Shown piece by piece: positions 19,624 through 28,606 of a DNA stretch of 30,622 nucleotides. The translations under genes were made by a program, and so were the position numbers. The notes under the pieces were generated by a model that was not told the DNA's origin, did not search any database, and saw only the letters and a program-made list of their open reading frames with translations. This DNA is from a virus, in the IMG/VR virus record IMGVR_UViG_3300042934_001305, positions 1 through 30,622 of that record; one strand, written 5' to 3'. The stretch's first letter is position 1. Every line of letters starts with the position of its first letter.

Positions 19624-21483
19624 TTATGTTTCTATACCTTTTTTGACCACTCCGCGCTTCCGTTGAGACTTCTTTGGGCTTAAATTTGCTGTCTTTTCTC
19701 CTAACAAAGCTGCATTTTGCAACCGCTTTTCAACCTCATCAAGGTTAGGATTGAGTATTTCAAAGGCTGCTTGAGCATAATTTCTAAGGTCCAAAGGCTC
19801 ATTTCTCTTAGTTGCAGCAGCTACCTTCTCCCAAATCATCCTTATTTGACCCTTTTGCTTACGCCTAACAAGCTTTTCTGATATAAGTCCCTTGAAGTAT
19901 ATACGATCATATCCTCTATTCTCATCATCAGGGTAATGACAGTAACCTGCACCGGGTTCCTTTATCTTAAGCCTACCCATAATCTTTGCCTTGCCTGAGT
20001 CAACTCCTAAAATAAATACCGCAGCATTTTCTTTCTTGCTGCGGTACAACTTATATAATAGGGGATAGCCAGAGCCACCCATACCTTTTATAGCAAATAT
20101 CCTTCTGTGCTCATTAGCCTTGCAGAACTTGTAAACCTCTTCAGTATAATGCCCTCCAGAGTCAACACAAGCGCAGGATATTTTTAAACCTATTCCATTT
20201 TGAAAGTGATATACTGTATCAAGTTTATCAGAAAGCAATTGCCAGGTTTCTTTTATGTCCGGCACACCCATTATAAGACCTTTCTCAATACCCCAAGTTT
20301 CTTCGCCTTTGCCATAGCCTACGATTTCATACTCTAATCTATCATCTTGTACGTCAACTGCAGCAGTCAGTATTAAAACTCCATCCGGTAACTCAGCAGG
20401 ATATTCTTCCCTTCTATCAAGTAAAATATCTTCACTTTCAAACTCACCTTCTTCTTCCCAAGGCTCACCGAATATTGTATTTTTAACAACCTTATGCTTT
20501 TCTGGGTCCTTTTTATCCTTTAACCAAATATGAACTATATCTTCCCATCTCCACCATGGAGATACAAAGGCATTTACATGAAAACTTCTTACCTTTTCTG
20601 CACTTGGATTCTCTGCAATCCACCTGCCTTCTGTATTGTTCCAATCAAATTCATCATATTCAGCCCCACAATGAGAACATTGATATACTACATTCCATAC
20701 CTTGTAGTTACCTTTTTCATCCTTGGTGTATTCAAATTTAACACCATGAATATTAATATACTCGTATGCTCCGCAATCAGGGCATTTCTTACGCCATTTC
20801 TCTTGTGTACCACTAACATACTCTTCCTCAATTCGGCATACATCCTTTATACCTGGAGTTGAAACAAATATCTTCTTGCGGTTAAAGAATGTCACCGTTC
20901 TTTTTTCACCAAGACCTAATGGATCACCCTCATCGCCTGCTGATACAGGAAAACGCCCAATTTCGTCGCCTATTAATATTCTTATAGGCTTAGAAGCCAA
21001 TCCACTTGGGCTGTTTGCGCCAACCAATGATAATGATCCACCAGGAAATACTTTGTTTAATATGGTATTGTTGCTGGTCCTACTTTTTTTATCAGCGATC
21101 TTTTCTCTCAACACTTTTGTATCTCTAAACAATGGATCCAATCTTCTTTTCGAATAGTCCTCTGCTAACTCAAGGGTAGGTTCTATTAGCATCATTGGAC
21201 ATGGGTCAATATCTATAAAATAACCAATGATATTATTGATTATTTCATTCTTACCAGCTTGTGAGCAGGTCATCATAACAATCTTTTCTATAAGAGGATC
21301 ATTCACTGCATCCATAATCTCAACCTGGTATGGAGCTCTTTCATTGTTCCACTTCCCAGGTTCTGCTGATGATTCAGAAGATAGTACTCTATTTTGCTCA
21401 GCCCATTGGCTAACTGTAATCTGTGGAGGCGGTGCAATAGTTTTAATAATTCGCTTAAACAGCTTAAGTGTCTTCTTCTTCAT
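19624..21483 (-). CDS. Terminase large subunit (GpA family)
   Basis: The start is set at the ATG at 21483, which has AAGGTGTGGAGG just upstream, although the frame is open to 21525. The 619-aa product is a GpA-type TerL. It has a Walker A-like CSQAGKNE at 73-80, where Asn replaces the usual Thr, and a Walker B ILIGDE at 169-174. A four-cysteine zinc finger (CPDC at 234-237 and CSHC at 269-272) follows, then the nuclease domain with AAVDVQDDRLE around Asp377 and the CACVDSGGHYTEE segment. It cuts concatemers, most likely at cos sites as in lambda, and powers packaging. It overlaps the small subunit gene by 20 bp. Confidence 0.94.
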   Translation of the reverse strand: MKKKTLKLFKRIIKTIAPPPQITVSQWAEQNRVLSSESSAEPGKWNNERAPYQVEIMDAVNDPLIEKIVMMTCSQAGKNEIINNIIGYFIDIDPCPMMLIEPTLELAEDYSKRRLDPLFRDTKVLREKIADKKSRTSNNTILNKVFPGGSLSLVGANSPSGLASKPIRILIGDEIGRFPVSAGDEGDPLGLGEKRTVTFFNRKKIFVSTPGIKDVCRIEEEYVSGTQEKWRKKCPDCGAYEYINIHGVKFEYTKDEKGNYKVWNVVYQCSHCGAEYDEFDWNNTEGRWIAENPSAEKVRSFHVNAFVSPWWRWEDIVHIWLKDKKDPEKHKVVKNTIFGEPWEEEGEFESEDILLDRREEYPAELPDGVLILTAAVDVQDDRLEYEIVGYGKGEETWGIEKGLIMGVPDIKETWQLLSDKLDTVYHFQNGIGLKISCACVDSGGHYTEEVYKFCKANEHRRIFAIKGMGGSGYPLLYKLYRSKKENAAVFILGVDSGKAKIMGRLKIKEPGAGYCHYPDDENRGYDRIYFKGLISEKLVRRKQKGQIRMIWEKVAAATKRNEPLDLRNYAQAAFEILNPNLDEVEKRLQNAALLGEKTANLSPKKSQRKRGVVKKGIET

Positions 21484-21961
21484 CCTCCACACCTTCAATC
21501 TCAATAGAAAACATTTCAGGCTCATATTCAGAAAGTTCTTCTAAAGCTTCTTTTATGGCCTTATCTAGCTCATGATTTATGATATTTATACTTTTCTGCC
21601 TTACTAATTTACTTGCTATTCTTGAAGGCAACCCGAGCATCTTACTTCTAAAATTAACAAGCATGTTTGTCATGACTTGTTCTACATCCTTAGCATCGTG
21701 AAGCTGGCCTTTAACCTTAGCATTGATCATCTCTGCTTTCTCTCTTTTAGCTTTTTCATGTAAGGCTTTTTCCATATCATAATCAGCATTACTTGATGGT
21801 TGTAGCTTCCATGTATAGTAAAGCTGTATATTTTTTGACAACTCAAATTTACCATCAGCATTCTTCGAAAGCACATCATCAGTCTCTAGCTGCTGTACTC
21901 TTCTTTGTGTTATTCCTAGTACTTTTGAAAGGTCTGAGGAAGTAACAAATAAGGGCAACAT
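21464..21961 (-). CDS. Terminase small subunit (Nu1-like)
   Basis: The ATG at 21961 is chosen because AAGGTGG precedes it; GTG codons further upstream have no site of their own. The 165-aa product has an N-terminal winged-helix DNA-binding part (FVTSSDLSKVLGITQRRVQQ, then a LETDDVL wing) like lambda Nu1. A long charged helix follows (EKALHEKAKREKAEMINAKV). After it comes MLVNFRSKMLGLPSRIASKL, the family signature, and an acidic C-terminus that would contact TerL. It recognises the packaging start and brings TerL to it. The binding site should lie close by, probably in the 22 kb intergenic region just upstream. Confidence 0.9.
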   Translation of the reverse strand: MLPLFVTSSDLSKVLGITQRRVQQLETDDVLSKNADGKFELSKNIQLYYTWKLQPSSNADYDMEKALHEKAKREKAEMINAKVKGQLHDAKDVEQVMTNMLVNFRSKMLGLPSRIASKLVRQKSINIINHELDKAIKEALEELSEYEPEMFSIEIEGVEDEEEDT

Positions 21962-21973
21962 TTTCGCCACCAC

Positions 21974-22327: not shown

Positions 22328-22352
22328 AAAAGAAAAAGAGCCTTATGGCTCT
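22328..22352 (-). terminator. Terminator of the WYL-domain gene
   Basis: AGAGCC (22337-22342) pairs with GGCTCT (22347-22352) around TTAT. The minus-strand tail is TTTTCTTTT. It starts 9 bases after the stop codon. Confidence 0.8.
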
Positions 22353-22360
22353 GAAATAAT

Positions 22361-22693
22361 TTATATCTTTGCGATTATATTCAAATAGTTTCTCGAGTTA
22401 GGATTATATCCTTGTTGTACTGAAAATGTCCTATCTTTGGAGATAACAATATTACTTATATTTTCTATGTCAAATTGCCTCCATGCTGGTAATTTTCTAA
22501 GGTTACTTGATTGTCCATCAATCTGGTATAAATCAAGTAATATATTTCTAGTAGTGATATGAGTATACACAGCATGAGGATAACCAATTCTTAAGGATTT
22601 TGTTATCTCATTAGGTTCCTTATAATCAAAAGAAATAACATACTTGTACTTTATTGCTTCGACAATATCATTTATAATCTGATAGTTTTGCAT
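22361..22693 (-). CDS. Compact WYL-domain-like protein, 110 aa
   Basis: The ATG at 22693 has GAGGTG six bases upstream; an in-frame GTG at 22702 is less well placed. The product is about the size of one WYL domain without a DNA-binding domain. It shows IKYKYVISFDYKEP (strand, F-x-Y), RIGYPHAVYTHITTRN with the P-H/Y signature, ILLDLYQIDGQSS and LPAWRQFDIENISNI. WYL domains bind ligands, often nucleic acid, and regulate defence and other loci. Alone it could be a ligand sensor or act with a partner. It is a single-gene unit with its own sigma-H-like promoter and terminator, third in the accessory cassette. The WYL call is from pattern and moderately firm. Confidence 0.65.
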   Translation of the reverse strand: MQNYQIINDIVEAIKYKYVISFDYKEPNEITKSLRIGYPHAVYTHITTRNILLDLYQIDGQSSNLRKLPAWRQFDIENISNIVISKDRTFSVQQGYNPNSRNYLNIIAKI

Positions 22694-22717
22694 ACATATC
22701 ACCTCACTTCAGCTACC

Positions 22718-22746
22718 ATATTCGGTAATTAAAAGGAAATACCTGC
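22718..22746 (-). promoter_or_regulatory. Sigma-H-like promoter of the WYL-domain gene
   Basis: On the minus strand, GCAGGTATT, then 11 bases, then ACCGAATAT. This fits the sigma-H consensus RNAGGAWWW-N11-12-RNNGAATWW with a single mismatch (T for A). The -10 ends 24 bases before the start codon at 22693. The same element with the same spacing precedes the next two genes. Confidence 0.6.
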
Positions 22747-22761
22747 TAATCGCCGCTAAAG

Positions 22762-22780
22762 AAAAAGAGCCTAATAGCTC
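22762..22780 (-). terminator. Weak terminator after the 97-aa gene
   Basis: GAGC (22767-22770) pairs with GCTC (22777-22780), and TTTTTC follows on the minus strand. The stem is short but the T-run is good and it lies 18 bases after the stop codon. Confidence 0.45.
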
Positions 22781-22797
22781 ATCTTCACTACTATTAT

Positions 22798-23091
22798 TTA
22801 TTTGGGATCTGTGACATCAGATCCAAGGTGCACGGTTCTCTTATCGCGGTAAATCTCAATACTGTTTAATGCTTTCCCTAATTCTTCACTTGTTGAATCT
22901 AAATTGTACTCTATCTTCTCTACTAAATCATTTATATTCTTTCTCAACTTTGCAATATTTGTTGCTAGATATCCATCCATTTTTGCTCGAGAATTTTCAT
23001 AATACCTTCCATTCTCTAAGTTTTTTAGTATATACTCAATATCTCCTAGCTCACTTGTATATTTCTTTCTAATATCTGTTGCTTTATCCAC
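22798..23091 (-). CDS. Small helical protein of the accessory cassette, 97 aa
   Basis: The GTG at 23091 is taken as start, because AAAGGAG lies nine bases upstream; the frame is open six more codons from a TTG with no site of its own. The product looks nearly all helical and charged, with TDIRKKYTSELGDIEYILKN, an AKLRKNINDLVEKIE repeat-like helix and LDSTSEELGKALNSIEIYRD, then a polar C-terminal tail. It may form a coiled coil or helical hairpin. There is no membrane segment and no family I recognise. It sits between the WYL-like and nuclease-like genes and has its own sigma-H-like promoter, so it is probably co-regulated with them and could be a partner or inhibitor. Confidence 0.65.
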   Translation of the reverse strand: MDKATDIRKKYTSELGDIEYILKNLENGRYYENSRAKMDGYLATNIAKLRKNINDLVEKIEYNLDSTSEELGKALNSIEIYRDKRTVHLGSDVTDPK

Positions 23092-23114
23092 CAAACCATC
23101 TCCTTTCAATTACC

Positions 23115-23143
23115 ATATTCGGCAATTAAAAGGAGTATCCTGC
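23115..23143 (-). promoter_or_regulatory. Sigma-H-like promoter of the 97-aa gene
   Basis: On the minus strand, GCAGGATAC, 11 bases, then GCCGAATAT, matching RNAGGAWWW-N11-12-RNNGAATWW except the last -35 base. The spacer TCCTTTTAATT is identical to that of the WYL-gene promoter. The -10 ends 23 bases before the GTG start. TGCCGAA also fits the Spo0A-box core TGNCGAA. Confidence 0.65.
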
Positions 23144-23149
23144 CAATAT

Positions 23150-23176
23150 CAAAAATAAAAGAGCATGTCAGCTCTT
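23150..23176 (-). terminator. Terminator of the nuclease-like gene
   Basis: AAGAGC (23159-23164) pairs with GCTCTT (23171-23176) around a 6-nt loop, and the minus-strand tail is TTATTTTT. It starts 26 bases after the stop codon at 23203. Confidence 0.7.
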
Positions 23177-23202
23177 AGTATCGGAACTATTAATAGTTCA
23201 AA

Positions 23203-24429
23203 TTATTCCTCAAATTTTAGTAACCCTATATTCTCAGACAGTAGTTTTATACAATCATTAGTATCAATTTCACTCTTTTTATATCTCTCATATATTCTTA
23301 ATAATGTTGGTGTTTCCACTATGAGGCTTTTGTTCCTTTCAGCAAGAGTAACTTGCTTTGCGTGAACTGGTTCTCTCTGGCTTAATGGCTTACTCTTTTG
23401 ATGTGCCATTATCAACAACGCTTTAACATTCGTTTCATTCTTATCAGGATGTTCATCTAAATAGTTTTGAAAATGTACATCAAGCTGAGATATATTTTCA
23501 GATTTAACATTGTGATTTACGCCCTTAATTTCACCTATGAATGTCAAATCTCCTATTTCTATTATAAAGTCTTCCTGTCTTTTATCTTCAAAACCACTTA
23601 GGGTACAATCAAGCATATGTTCTAGTATTTCGAATACTATTTTCACTAAAAAATCACCACTTGAATAAATAATTGATTTAAGCTCATTATTCCTAGCAAT
23701 GACTTTTGAAGCCTCCTCGATATTCTTATTAGCATCACCTATTAGTTTTAGATTATGATTTATTAAATCATTTTTTTCTCGATCATCAAACATATTCAAT
23801 TCTTTTACCCAAATTGGGATATCTTCTTGCTCGTTTATGAGCCCTGCTGCCTTTAAAAAGTCATTAACATCATTTACTTTTAAATTAAGAGTTGTTATTA
23901 TTAATCGTTCTCTTAGCATAGCAGATGTTATTTTTTTACTATGGTTTGATATAGTTAATGTCTTAAAAGATATTAACGGTGTCTTGTCATTAAAATAAAA
24001 TGATGCGTTAATTGTTTTTCCATTAATATTTGTTGATGTATTTTCATATAACAAGCATTTATCAGGTATACCGATTAAACTCTTCAAGATATTTACCAAA
24101 TAATCCAGCATATTTTTCAATTCGCTACTCTTTATATACCTTGAACTAGAATTAGCATACTCATATAGAAATGATACATTTACTGGGAATTTAACAATAA
24201 AAGTAGATTTCTTAGAATTCCCTATCATTATTCCTAAATTACGCAAATCATTTATACAATTAATACTGGCCTGAGTATTTGCCCTAGATCTCCAAATATT
24301 CTCATCACTTAAATCTATTAAATTAAACTCAAATTCGTCTAGTGACTTGGGCTCTTCTAATTTGCTGAAAATTATATCGCTTAAATTGGAATTTTCATTT
24401 TTCCCACTATAAGAAATAATCTGAATCAT
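23203..24429 (-). CDS. Nuclease-like protein with C-terminal PD-(D/E)xK fold
   Basis: The 408-aa product has two parts. The N-terminal 260 residues (FNLIDLSDENIWRSRANTQA, then STFIVKFPVNVSFLYEY, and helical NLKLIGDANKNIEEASKVI near 230) are unlike anything I can name. From about 262 the sequence fits a PD-(D/E)xK nuclease. It has a helix Glu270 in VFEILEHML, Asp287 in QEDF, the core Glu300-x-Lys302 in IGEIKG, Gln315 in SQLDVHF, and a later REPVH segment with LIVETPTLLRIYERY. Such domains act on DNA or RNA in restriction and abortive defence. GGAGGGG precedes the ATG. It is the first gene of the accessory cassette and has its own promoter and terminator. Confidence 0.7.
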   Translation of the reverse strand: MIQIISYSGKNENSNLSDIIFSKLEEPKSLDEFEFNLIDLSDENIWRSRANTQASINCINDLRNLGIMIGNSKKSTFIVKFPVNVSFLYEYANSSSRYIKSSELKNMLDYLVNILKSLIGIPDKCLLYENTSTNINGKTINASFYFNDKTPLISFKTLTISNHSKKITSAMLRERLIITTLNLKVNDVNDFLKAAGLINEQEDIPIWVKELNMFDDREKNDLINHNLKLIGDANKNIEEASKVIARNNELKSIIYSSGDFLVKIVFEILEHMLDCTLSGFEDKRQEDFIIEIGDLTFIGEIKGVNHNVKSENISQLDVHFQNYLDEHPDKNETNVKALLIMAHQKSKPLSQREPVHAKQVTLAERNKSLIVETPTLLRIYERYKKSEIDTNDCIKLLSENIGLLKFEE

Positions 24430-24452
24430 ATAACCCCTCCTTCATTTTACTC

Positions 24453-24481
24453 ATATTCTACAATCAAATGAAAATTCCTTT
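24453..24481 (-). promoter_or_regulatory. Sigma-H-like promoter of the nuclease-like gene
   Basis: On the minus strand, AAAGGAATT, 11 bases (TTCATTTGATT), then GTAGAATAT, a full match to RNAGGAWWW-N11-12-RNNGAATWW. The -10 ends 23 bases before the start codon at 24429, as at the other two genes. Confidence 0.7.
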
Positions 24482-24526
24482 TTACACCGGACCCCGCACG
24501 GAGGATTATGTTGAGTCCCTAAAATA

Positions 24527-28130: not shown

Positions 28131-28514
28131 TTATCCTTGATATCCAAACAAATCCTCTAACATTAGTTGTAGTTTATTACATGCTGATTCATATTTACAT
28201 TCATCACACATGCCAGAACATTGCTGATCTTCTGAGTAAAGCTTCTCCAAGGCCTGCATAACACTAAATTTATCAATTGGTTCCTGTAAGGATAAATCAG
28301 GTACCTTGTCCATTGATTCAAAATAATCATGTAAAGTAATATATAACGCTTCAATATGTACAAAGGTACCCAAAACTACACACACCAGCTCATCATTCTC
28401 AAATATACCTAGAATATGCTGGTCCTCCTCATGTTGATTCTGAAATATCGCAAGTGCTACATTATCACTAGATGTCTCTTTAAGATCAATGATAGCCTTT
28501 ACTCCTGTTTCCAT
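28131..28514 (-). CDS. Hypothetical early protein with cysteine cluster, 127 aa
   Basis: The product is acidic and mostly alpha/beta, with SSDNVALAIFQNQHEEDQHI, then LGIFENDELVCVVLGTFVHI and a helix of the EALYITLHDYFESM type. A C-terminal cluster reads CSGMCDECKYESAC, with four cysteines spaced C-x3-C-x2-C-x5-C, followed by a helix. This suggests a small metal site. AAAGGGTGAT lies well before the ATG at 28514. It precedes the replication gene in the early operon and no family is recognised. Phage-specific early role is likely but unspecified. Confidence 0.65.
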   Translation of the reverse strand: METGVKAIIDLKETSSDNVALAIFQNQHEEDQHILGIFENDELVCVVLGTFVHIEALYITLHDYFESMDKVPDLSLQEPIDKFSVMQALEKLYSEDQQCSGMCDECKYESACNKLQLMLEDLFGYQG

Positions 28515-28549: not shown

Positions 28550-28583
28550 ATCAATAGGGCGGAACGTTCCCCACCCTATTGAT
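28550..28583. repeat. Nested inverted repeat in the early intergenic region
   Basis: ATCAATAGGG (28550-28559) and CCCTATTGAT (28574-28583) are perfect arms. Inside lies the palindrome GGAACGTTCC (28561-28570). No T-run follows. It sits between two early genes and could be an operator or a stable RNA hairpin. Confidence 0.55.
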
Positions 28584-28606
28584 TTTATATATATGAATTG
28601 TTATAA

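Follow-up and report, generated by a model that had tools for sequence, protein, structure and literature searches.

Sigma-H-type promoters within ribosome-binding-site hairpins at a probable cargo locus of a temperate clostridial phage

Morons of temperate phages are single cargo genes, each with its own promoter and terminator, that lie between phage operons and vary among related phages. Transcription of a phage gene by host sigma-H has been described for int of Staphylococcus aureus prophages such as phi11, both in vitro and in vivo (PMC2869324). Control through the leader is known from the T4 genes e, soc and 49 and from the homing endonucleases I-TevI, segB and Aeh1 mobE, where read-through RNA hides the ribosome-binding site; for T4 gene e the translation block is reported as ~100-fold (PMC3014915, PMC2988022). 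In addition, some phages carry sporulation genes or sporulation sigma factors (PMC9429907, PMC10294663).

The stretch of DNA analysed here (the window) is a virus record from IMG/VR, 30,622 bases long, for which no host is stated. It carries a temperate-phage gene set that includes a phage integrase, a DnaB-like replication protein, a terminase and tail genes. The early region lies on one side of three single-gene units and the terminase small subunit on the other; the neighbouring genes are on the same strand (Table 1). We consider it probable that this region serves a temperate phage of spore-forming Clostridia as a moron (cargo) locus, and that its units are driven by sigma-H, insulated by a hairpin and silent under lytic read-through.

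Table 1. Features of the cargo locus, with positions in the window
Feature	Position	Strand	Details
Unit 1 sigma-H-type promoter	24453..24481	-	AAAGGAATT (24481-24473), 11-nt spacer, GTAGAATAT (24461-24453); 0 mismatches
Unit 1 hairpin	24440..24473	-	TTCATTT region of the spacer pairs with AAATGAAGG next to the Shine-Dalgarno
Gene 1	23203..24429	-	408 aa, PD-(D/E)xK nuclease-like; conserved D281, E299, K301
Terminator-like hairpin after gene 1	23159..23176	-	
Unit 2 sigma-H-type promoter	23115..23143	-	GCAGGATAC, 11-nt spacer, GCCGAATAT; 1 mismatch
Unit 2 hairpin	23100..23135	-	arms 23135-23121 and 23114-23100, 15 pairs, loop GAATAT
Gene 2	22798..23091	-	97 aa, helical, PHROG 37959 (unknown function), E 3e-19
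Terminator-like hairpin after gene 2	22767..22780	-	repeated family D2
Unit 3 sigma-H-type promoter	22718..22746	-	GCAGGTATT, 11-nt spacer, ACCGAATAT; 1 mismatch
Unit 3 hairpin	22700..22741	-	arms 22741-22724 and 22717-22700, three bulges or mismatches
Gene 3	22361..22693	-	110 aa, weakly WYL-like; sub-threshold profile match
Terminator-like hairpin after gene 3	22337..22352	-	
Terminase small subunit, right-hand border of the locus	21464..21973	-	PHROG 57, E 5e-29

Promoters and cargo at the locus

The sigma-H pattern consists of RNAGGAWWW and RNNGAATWW boxes with 11–12 nt between them. A first-pass annotation had described three such minus-strand elements with 11-nt spacers, each serving a single-gene unit with its own terminator. 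All three elements are present with the mismatches it had counted, at distances of 23, 23 and 24 nt from the respective starts (ATG 24429, GTG 23091 and ATG 22693). An intrinsic-terminator-like hairpin follows every gene, and the region holds 5 terminator-like sites where 1.0 would be expected. The whole window contains 6 sites with at most one mismatch, compared with 1.34 ± 1.21 in shuffles. When scored with a promoter matrix trained only on 30 chromosomal sites of a related host, where spacers are T-rich as well, site 1 reaches 26.1, a value that no shuffle attains (maximum 18.7). The scores of site 3 (15.5) and site 2 (14.0) are lower, and ~0.27 hits of at least 14 are expected per shuffled window. 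Taken alone, these two are weaker matches and suggestive only; what supports them is that they are conserved in related phages, and the header of unit 2 is conserved in L003, L004 and L009. Sigma-A promoters at the three sites were considered and set aside.

The terminase relatives of the window are L003 (91%), L004 (85%) and L002 (75%). At the same place the element occurs three times in L003 and once in L004, before different genes. In L002, the most distant, a weaker element with a 12-nt spacer precedes an ion-channel-like gene. L009, which has a different terminase, carries two elements that were found with a pattern including the conserved spacer, and the same spacer pattern is present in L012, a Clostridia MAG contig nearly identical to L003. 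A search with the window's own exact header returned no match; relaxed patterns gave matches. The same element stands before different genes in L003, L004 and L009, so the header is kept while the cargo is swapped. The promoter goes with the type of locus and not with a gene family. The element is mostly absent from the 12–15 kb upstream of seven terminase relatives (46–61%) in other Clostridia genomes, and so it is not general to the terminase type. Searches found no named laboratory phage with such a unit. As in morons, each unit has a single gene with its own promoter and terminator, and what lies at the same place in related phages (L003, L004, L009 and L002) is different or absent.

Two other inverted repeats occur in the window. 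One is long and imperfect (GTTGGACAT...ATGTCCAAC around TGTTAAACTCA...TGAGTTTAACA, ~24890-24780, minus strand) and lies beside the integrase gene, where it may possibly mark the attachment-site region. The other is strong (ATCAATAGGGTGGGGAACGTTCCGCCCTATTGAT, ~28550-28590) and lies upstream of the gene at 28131-28514.

The three proteins had been regarded as a functional set, a view that is not upheld: the cargo differs between phages, and homologues elsewhere are mostly without the site. A scan of related phages for the motif gave a divided answer, in that the same locus carries the promoter whereas homologues of the three genes mostly lack it. The sigma-H site is absent from gene-2 relatives L096, L098, L099, L107, L109 and L110, from gene-3 relatives L125-L127 and from gene-1 relatives L112-L115. 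The exceptions are gene-2 relatives L097 and L130, with both sigma-H site and hairpin, and gene-1 relative L117, with a degenerate site. Gene-2 relatives were found in L096-L099, L107, L110 and L130.

The nuclease-like label given to gene 1 stands on residues that are invariant in its family (D281, E285, D286, E299 and K301), and has no other basis. No relative of gene 1 was found in IMG/VR, phage records, Pfam or PDB, and a single-sequence AlphaFold model (pLDDT 34) was not used. Gene-1 relatives in L113, L114 and L115 (~position 1480) start immediately after an hsdS gene of type I restriction, which gives the family the look of an accessory to such restriction loci. Gene 3 had been called a WYL-domain protein; what remains of this is a weak likeness with a profile score below threshold. 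The Pfam WYL profile is under its cut-off in all three gene-3 relatives (best E 0.0019), and the PADLOC WYL profile gives E 0.0023. The cargo of the related phages is mostly of unknown kind or membrane-like, and defence families gave no match there except for one weak DruC-like score. A role of the cargo in defence or exclusion is a guess.

Sigma-H usage in related hosts

The contig L012 is binned in G001, a spore-forming Clostridia genome (MAG). This contig is all phage, and the host assignment is by binning together with one relic of gene 1 from another genome of that order. G001 contains 38 occurrences of the motif, compared with 2 of a reversed control pattern, and 3 of the 38 are the phage sites. 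Most of the remainder are intergenic and precede spoVS, dnaG, ftsZ, an FtsA-like gene, ftsE, HU, PAS kinases and lactate permease (gene names read from translated starts, without annotation). In other genomes of the order, spo0A and spoVS are preceded by the same motif. G001 also encodes SigH (371 bits, well above the curated cut-off). The earlier assignment to sigma-H is thus borne out by the motif set and SigH of a genome that holds a close relative of the phage, and the same motif stands there before known sigma-H genes. The gene-1 relic, on a chromosomal contig of G021 from the same order, is related to gene 1 at 58%; it is interrupted by an internal stop and preceded by a degenerate header (2 mismatches; fold -17 kcal/mol). 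It provides independent support for the host link.

From these observations it seems likely that host RNA polymerase carrying sigma-H recognises the promoters. Another sigma factor of similar preference, from host or phage, could read them instead, in which case the timing would not be that of sigma-H. G001 does encode further sigma-70-type proteins. However, the same boxes and spacing occur before classic sigma-H genes in related hosts, and the SigH family has no match in five phage records (the window, L002, L003, L004 and L009). We regard this as the least probable of the readings weighed here, and a phage sigma factor was set aside.

A link between the units and the sporulation decision, as the first-pass annotation had drawn, would be a further step. 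In its strict form it is an inference: the same motif in the related host also precedes ftsZ, dnaG, HU and lactate permease. Sigma-H, the sigma factor of stationary phase and sporulation, also serves growth and transition genes. A sigma-H site upstream of the lactate permease gene was seen both in G001 (L062) and in a Negativicutes MAG (L013, 3490-3516), and lactate permease may be a shared sigma-H target.

A hairpin joining promoter spacer and Shine-Dalgarno

The first reading had missed the main point, a recurrent hairpin in which the spacer of the promoter pairs with the Shine-Dalgarno region. In unit 2 the Shine-Dalgarno AAAGGAG lies inside the 3' arm. The fold of this unit is -21.9 kcal/mol (z -4.8 relative to a shuffled 5' arm), and the unpaired fraction of the Shine-Dalgarno rises from 0.16 in the long RNA to 0.95 in the short one. 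The corresponding values for unit 3 are 0.28 and 0.98, with a fold of -12.0 kcal/mol (z -1.1). Unit 1 is the weakest of the three: alone, its hairpin reaches -5.4 kcal/mol (z -0.7) and leaves the Shine-Dalgarno 64% unpaired. With 75 nt of context the Shine-Dalgarno is 94% paired, through an upstream CCTCC (24504-24500) with GGAGG. The hairpins of units 1 and 3 are therefore, by their z-scores, no better than shuffled arms. As in leaders of the T4 type, the predicted folds sequester the Shine-Dalgarno in the long RNA and expose it when the RNA begins at the internal promoter; for unit 1 this holds only with the wider context. Upstream of unit 1, a terminator-like hairpin (24504-24497, minus strand) contains an anti-Shine-Dalgarno-like CCTCCGTG that can pair with the unit 1 GGAGG, and L009 has CCTCCGTG in the corresponding position (~3865-3815).

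Of the 13 phage sites first examined, every one has a best fold in which the promoter spacer is base-paired to the Shine-Dalgarno region or to its edge; these sites are partly related, so that counts overstate their independence. The Shine-Dalgarno is 66–99% paired in the long RNA at 12 of these 13, and in RNA starting 6 nt after the -10 box it is mostly free (0.67–0.99, except 0.37 in L097a). Twenty host sigma-H leaders show no such pattern of Shine-Dalgarno pairing, nor do another 77 sites from 22 genomes of the order, at which the mean Shine-Dalgarno pairing to the 5' arm is 0.17, as against 0.85.

A new scan of IMG/VR, which used the promoter letters only, yielded 32 stretches. Across all phage loci collected, and by a fixed criterion, the hairpin is present at 15/26 phage sigma-H genes and absent from ~11/26, and it occurs at 0/27 host sigma-H genes with equally purine-rich Shine-Dalgarnos (Fisher p 1.2e-6). 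Among 619 phage genes, a ribosome-binding-site hairpin and a sigma-H site coincide 12 times (p 4.5e-7, or p 3e-6 without the motif-selected loci); sites of the main family are related, and p values that count each singly are optimistic. Among the new cases with the hairpin are two units each in L137 and L154, a single unit in L150 and, in L130, a relative of gene 2; the best shows a perfect arm pair (AAAACTCCTTTT/AAAAGGAGTTTT). Arms were also swapped among eight lineages, with one site per lineage. Pairing as good as that of the native arms is reached in 59 of 40,320 permutations, and in 58 of 5,040 when the main family is left out. Stem positions show several pair types, including G.U pairs, and pairing is thus conserved beyond sequence, as judged from the swaps and the table of pairs.

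These data bear on whether the hairpin has a function at all. The units might be ordinary sigma-H moron genes whose inverted repeat is incidental, produced by a T-rich spacer facing a purine-rich Shine-Dalgarno and by recent duplication of the header. Seven of the sites are near-copies, the z-scores of units 1 and 3 are unremarkable, and host sigma-H spacers are T-rich too. However, the host genes just described lack the hairpin, Shine-Dalgarno pairing is low at the 77 further sites, and arm swaps weaken the pairing. In addition, the unrelated phages L096, L097, L130, L137, L150 and L154 have the hairpin with other arm sequences. On balance an incidental repeat seems unlikely. Alternatively, the repeat could be a DNA operator at which a dimeric repressor, e.g. 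a phage regulator, binds around the -10 box and silences the units; the dyad is indeed centred on that box, with near-identical arms in the main family. However, the 3' arm always reaches the Shine-Dalgarno. An RNA stem is favoured over a sequence-specific operator because pairing is kept while arm sequences differ by lineage, with many G.U pairs. An operator appears very improbable and was set aside.

Hairpins that sequester the ribosome-binding site were also seen with sigma-A-like promoters, one in L097 at 6103 (TTGACA...TAGAAT inside the hairpin; arms CACCTC/GAGGTG) and one in L125 (~1420-1475) before the gene-3 relative. Given these variants, the hairpin may be a more general device, with sigma-H as one input among others.

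Proposed mechanism and comparison with known systems

The mechanism proposed here draws on computed features, namely the promoter match, the SigH and motif set of the related host, the conservation of the header despite changing cargo, the folds and their recurrence with different arms. Each cargo gene would form an independent unit of promoter, gene and terminator, whose promoter is read by host sigma-H RNA polymerase. The promoter spacer would double as the 5' arm of a hairpin that holds the Shine-Dalgarno in its 3' arm. The surrounding genes are all on one strand, making read-through RNA possible. Such RNA, from upstream phage genes, would contain both arms and would not be translated, while RNA from the sigma-H promoter would start just downstream of the -10 box, lack the 5' arm and be translatable. 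Cargo would then be made from its own promoter while host sigma-H is active, presumably to the benefit of the lysogen, and would stay silent during lytic transcription through the locus.

A broader and more tentative proposal, possible although we lean slightly against it, is that these units represent a recurring cargo class in spore-forming Firmicutes, in which the start site acts as a lock and the sigma-H mRNA is the only translatable one. Such cargo would be silent in the lytic cycle and on in stationary or sporulating lysogens, and may guard against other phages. If true, this would amount to a rule by which passenger genes stay quiet during the prophage's own lytic cycle and yet are coupled to the physiological condition of a spore-forming host. 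Such a rule could be read from sequence, as a sigma-H promoter whose spacer complements the Shine-Dalgarno. Across clostridial phages it could help to locate cargo expressed in lysogens, which is largely of unknown function and may be defensive, and it would make the response of prophages to the sporulation transition testable.

Each half of the arrangement has precedents, in S. aureus phage int transcribed by SigH and in the hairpins of T4 gene e and I-TevI. The combination of sigma-H promoter and ribosome-binding-site hairpin in exchangeable temperate-phage cargo of spore formers was not found in the open-licence literature searched, and there it is apparently undescribed. Known morons use a housekeeping promoter, whereas these units have sigma-H plus a built-in block on translation of read-through RNA. 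The S. aureus phage int is alike in being a phage gene with a short conserved leader transcribed by host sigma-H (PMC2869324). However, it is an integrase gene in a non-sporulating host, and here the cargo is exchangeable and the promoter lies in the ribosome-binding-site hairpin; the phi11 leader folds weakly (-7.7 kcal/mol). Leaders of the T4 type share a promoter inside the 5' arm that yields a short translatable RNA (PMC3014915, PMC2988022). Theirs is a phage late promoter that sets timing within the lytic cycle, in contrast to the host sigma-H promoter proposed for this temperate phage. Phages with sporulation genes likewise link phage genes to the host sporulation programme (PMC9429907, PMC10294663), but their regulators act on the host, whereas here the phage genes would listen to a host sigma factor.
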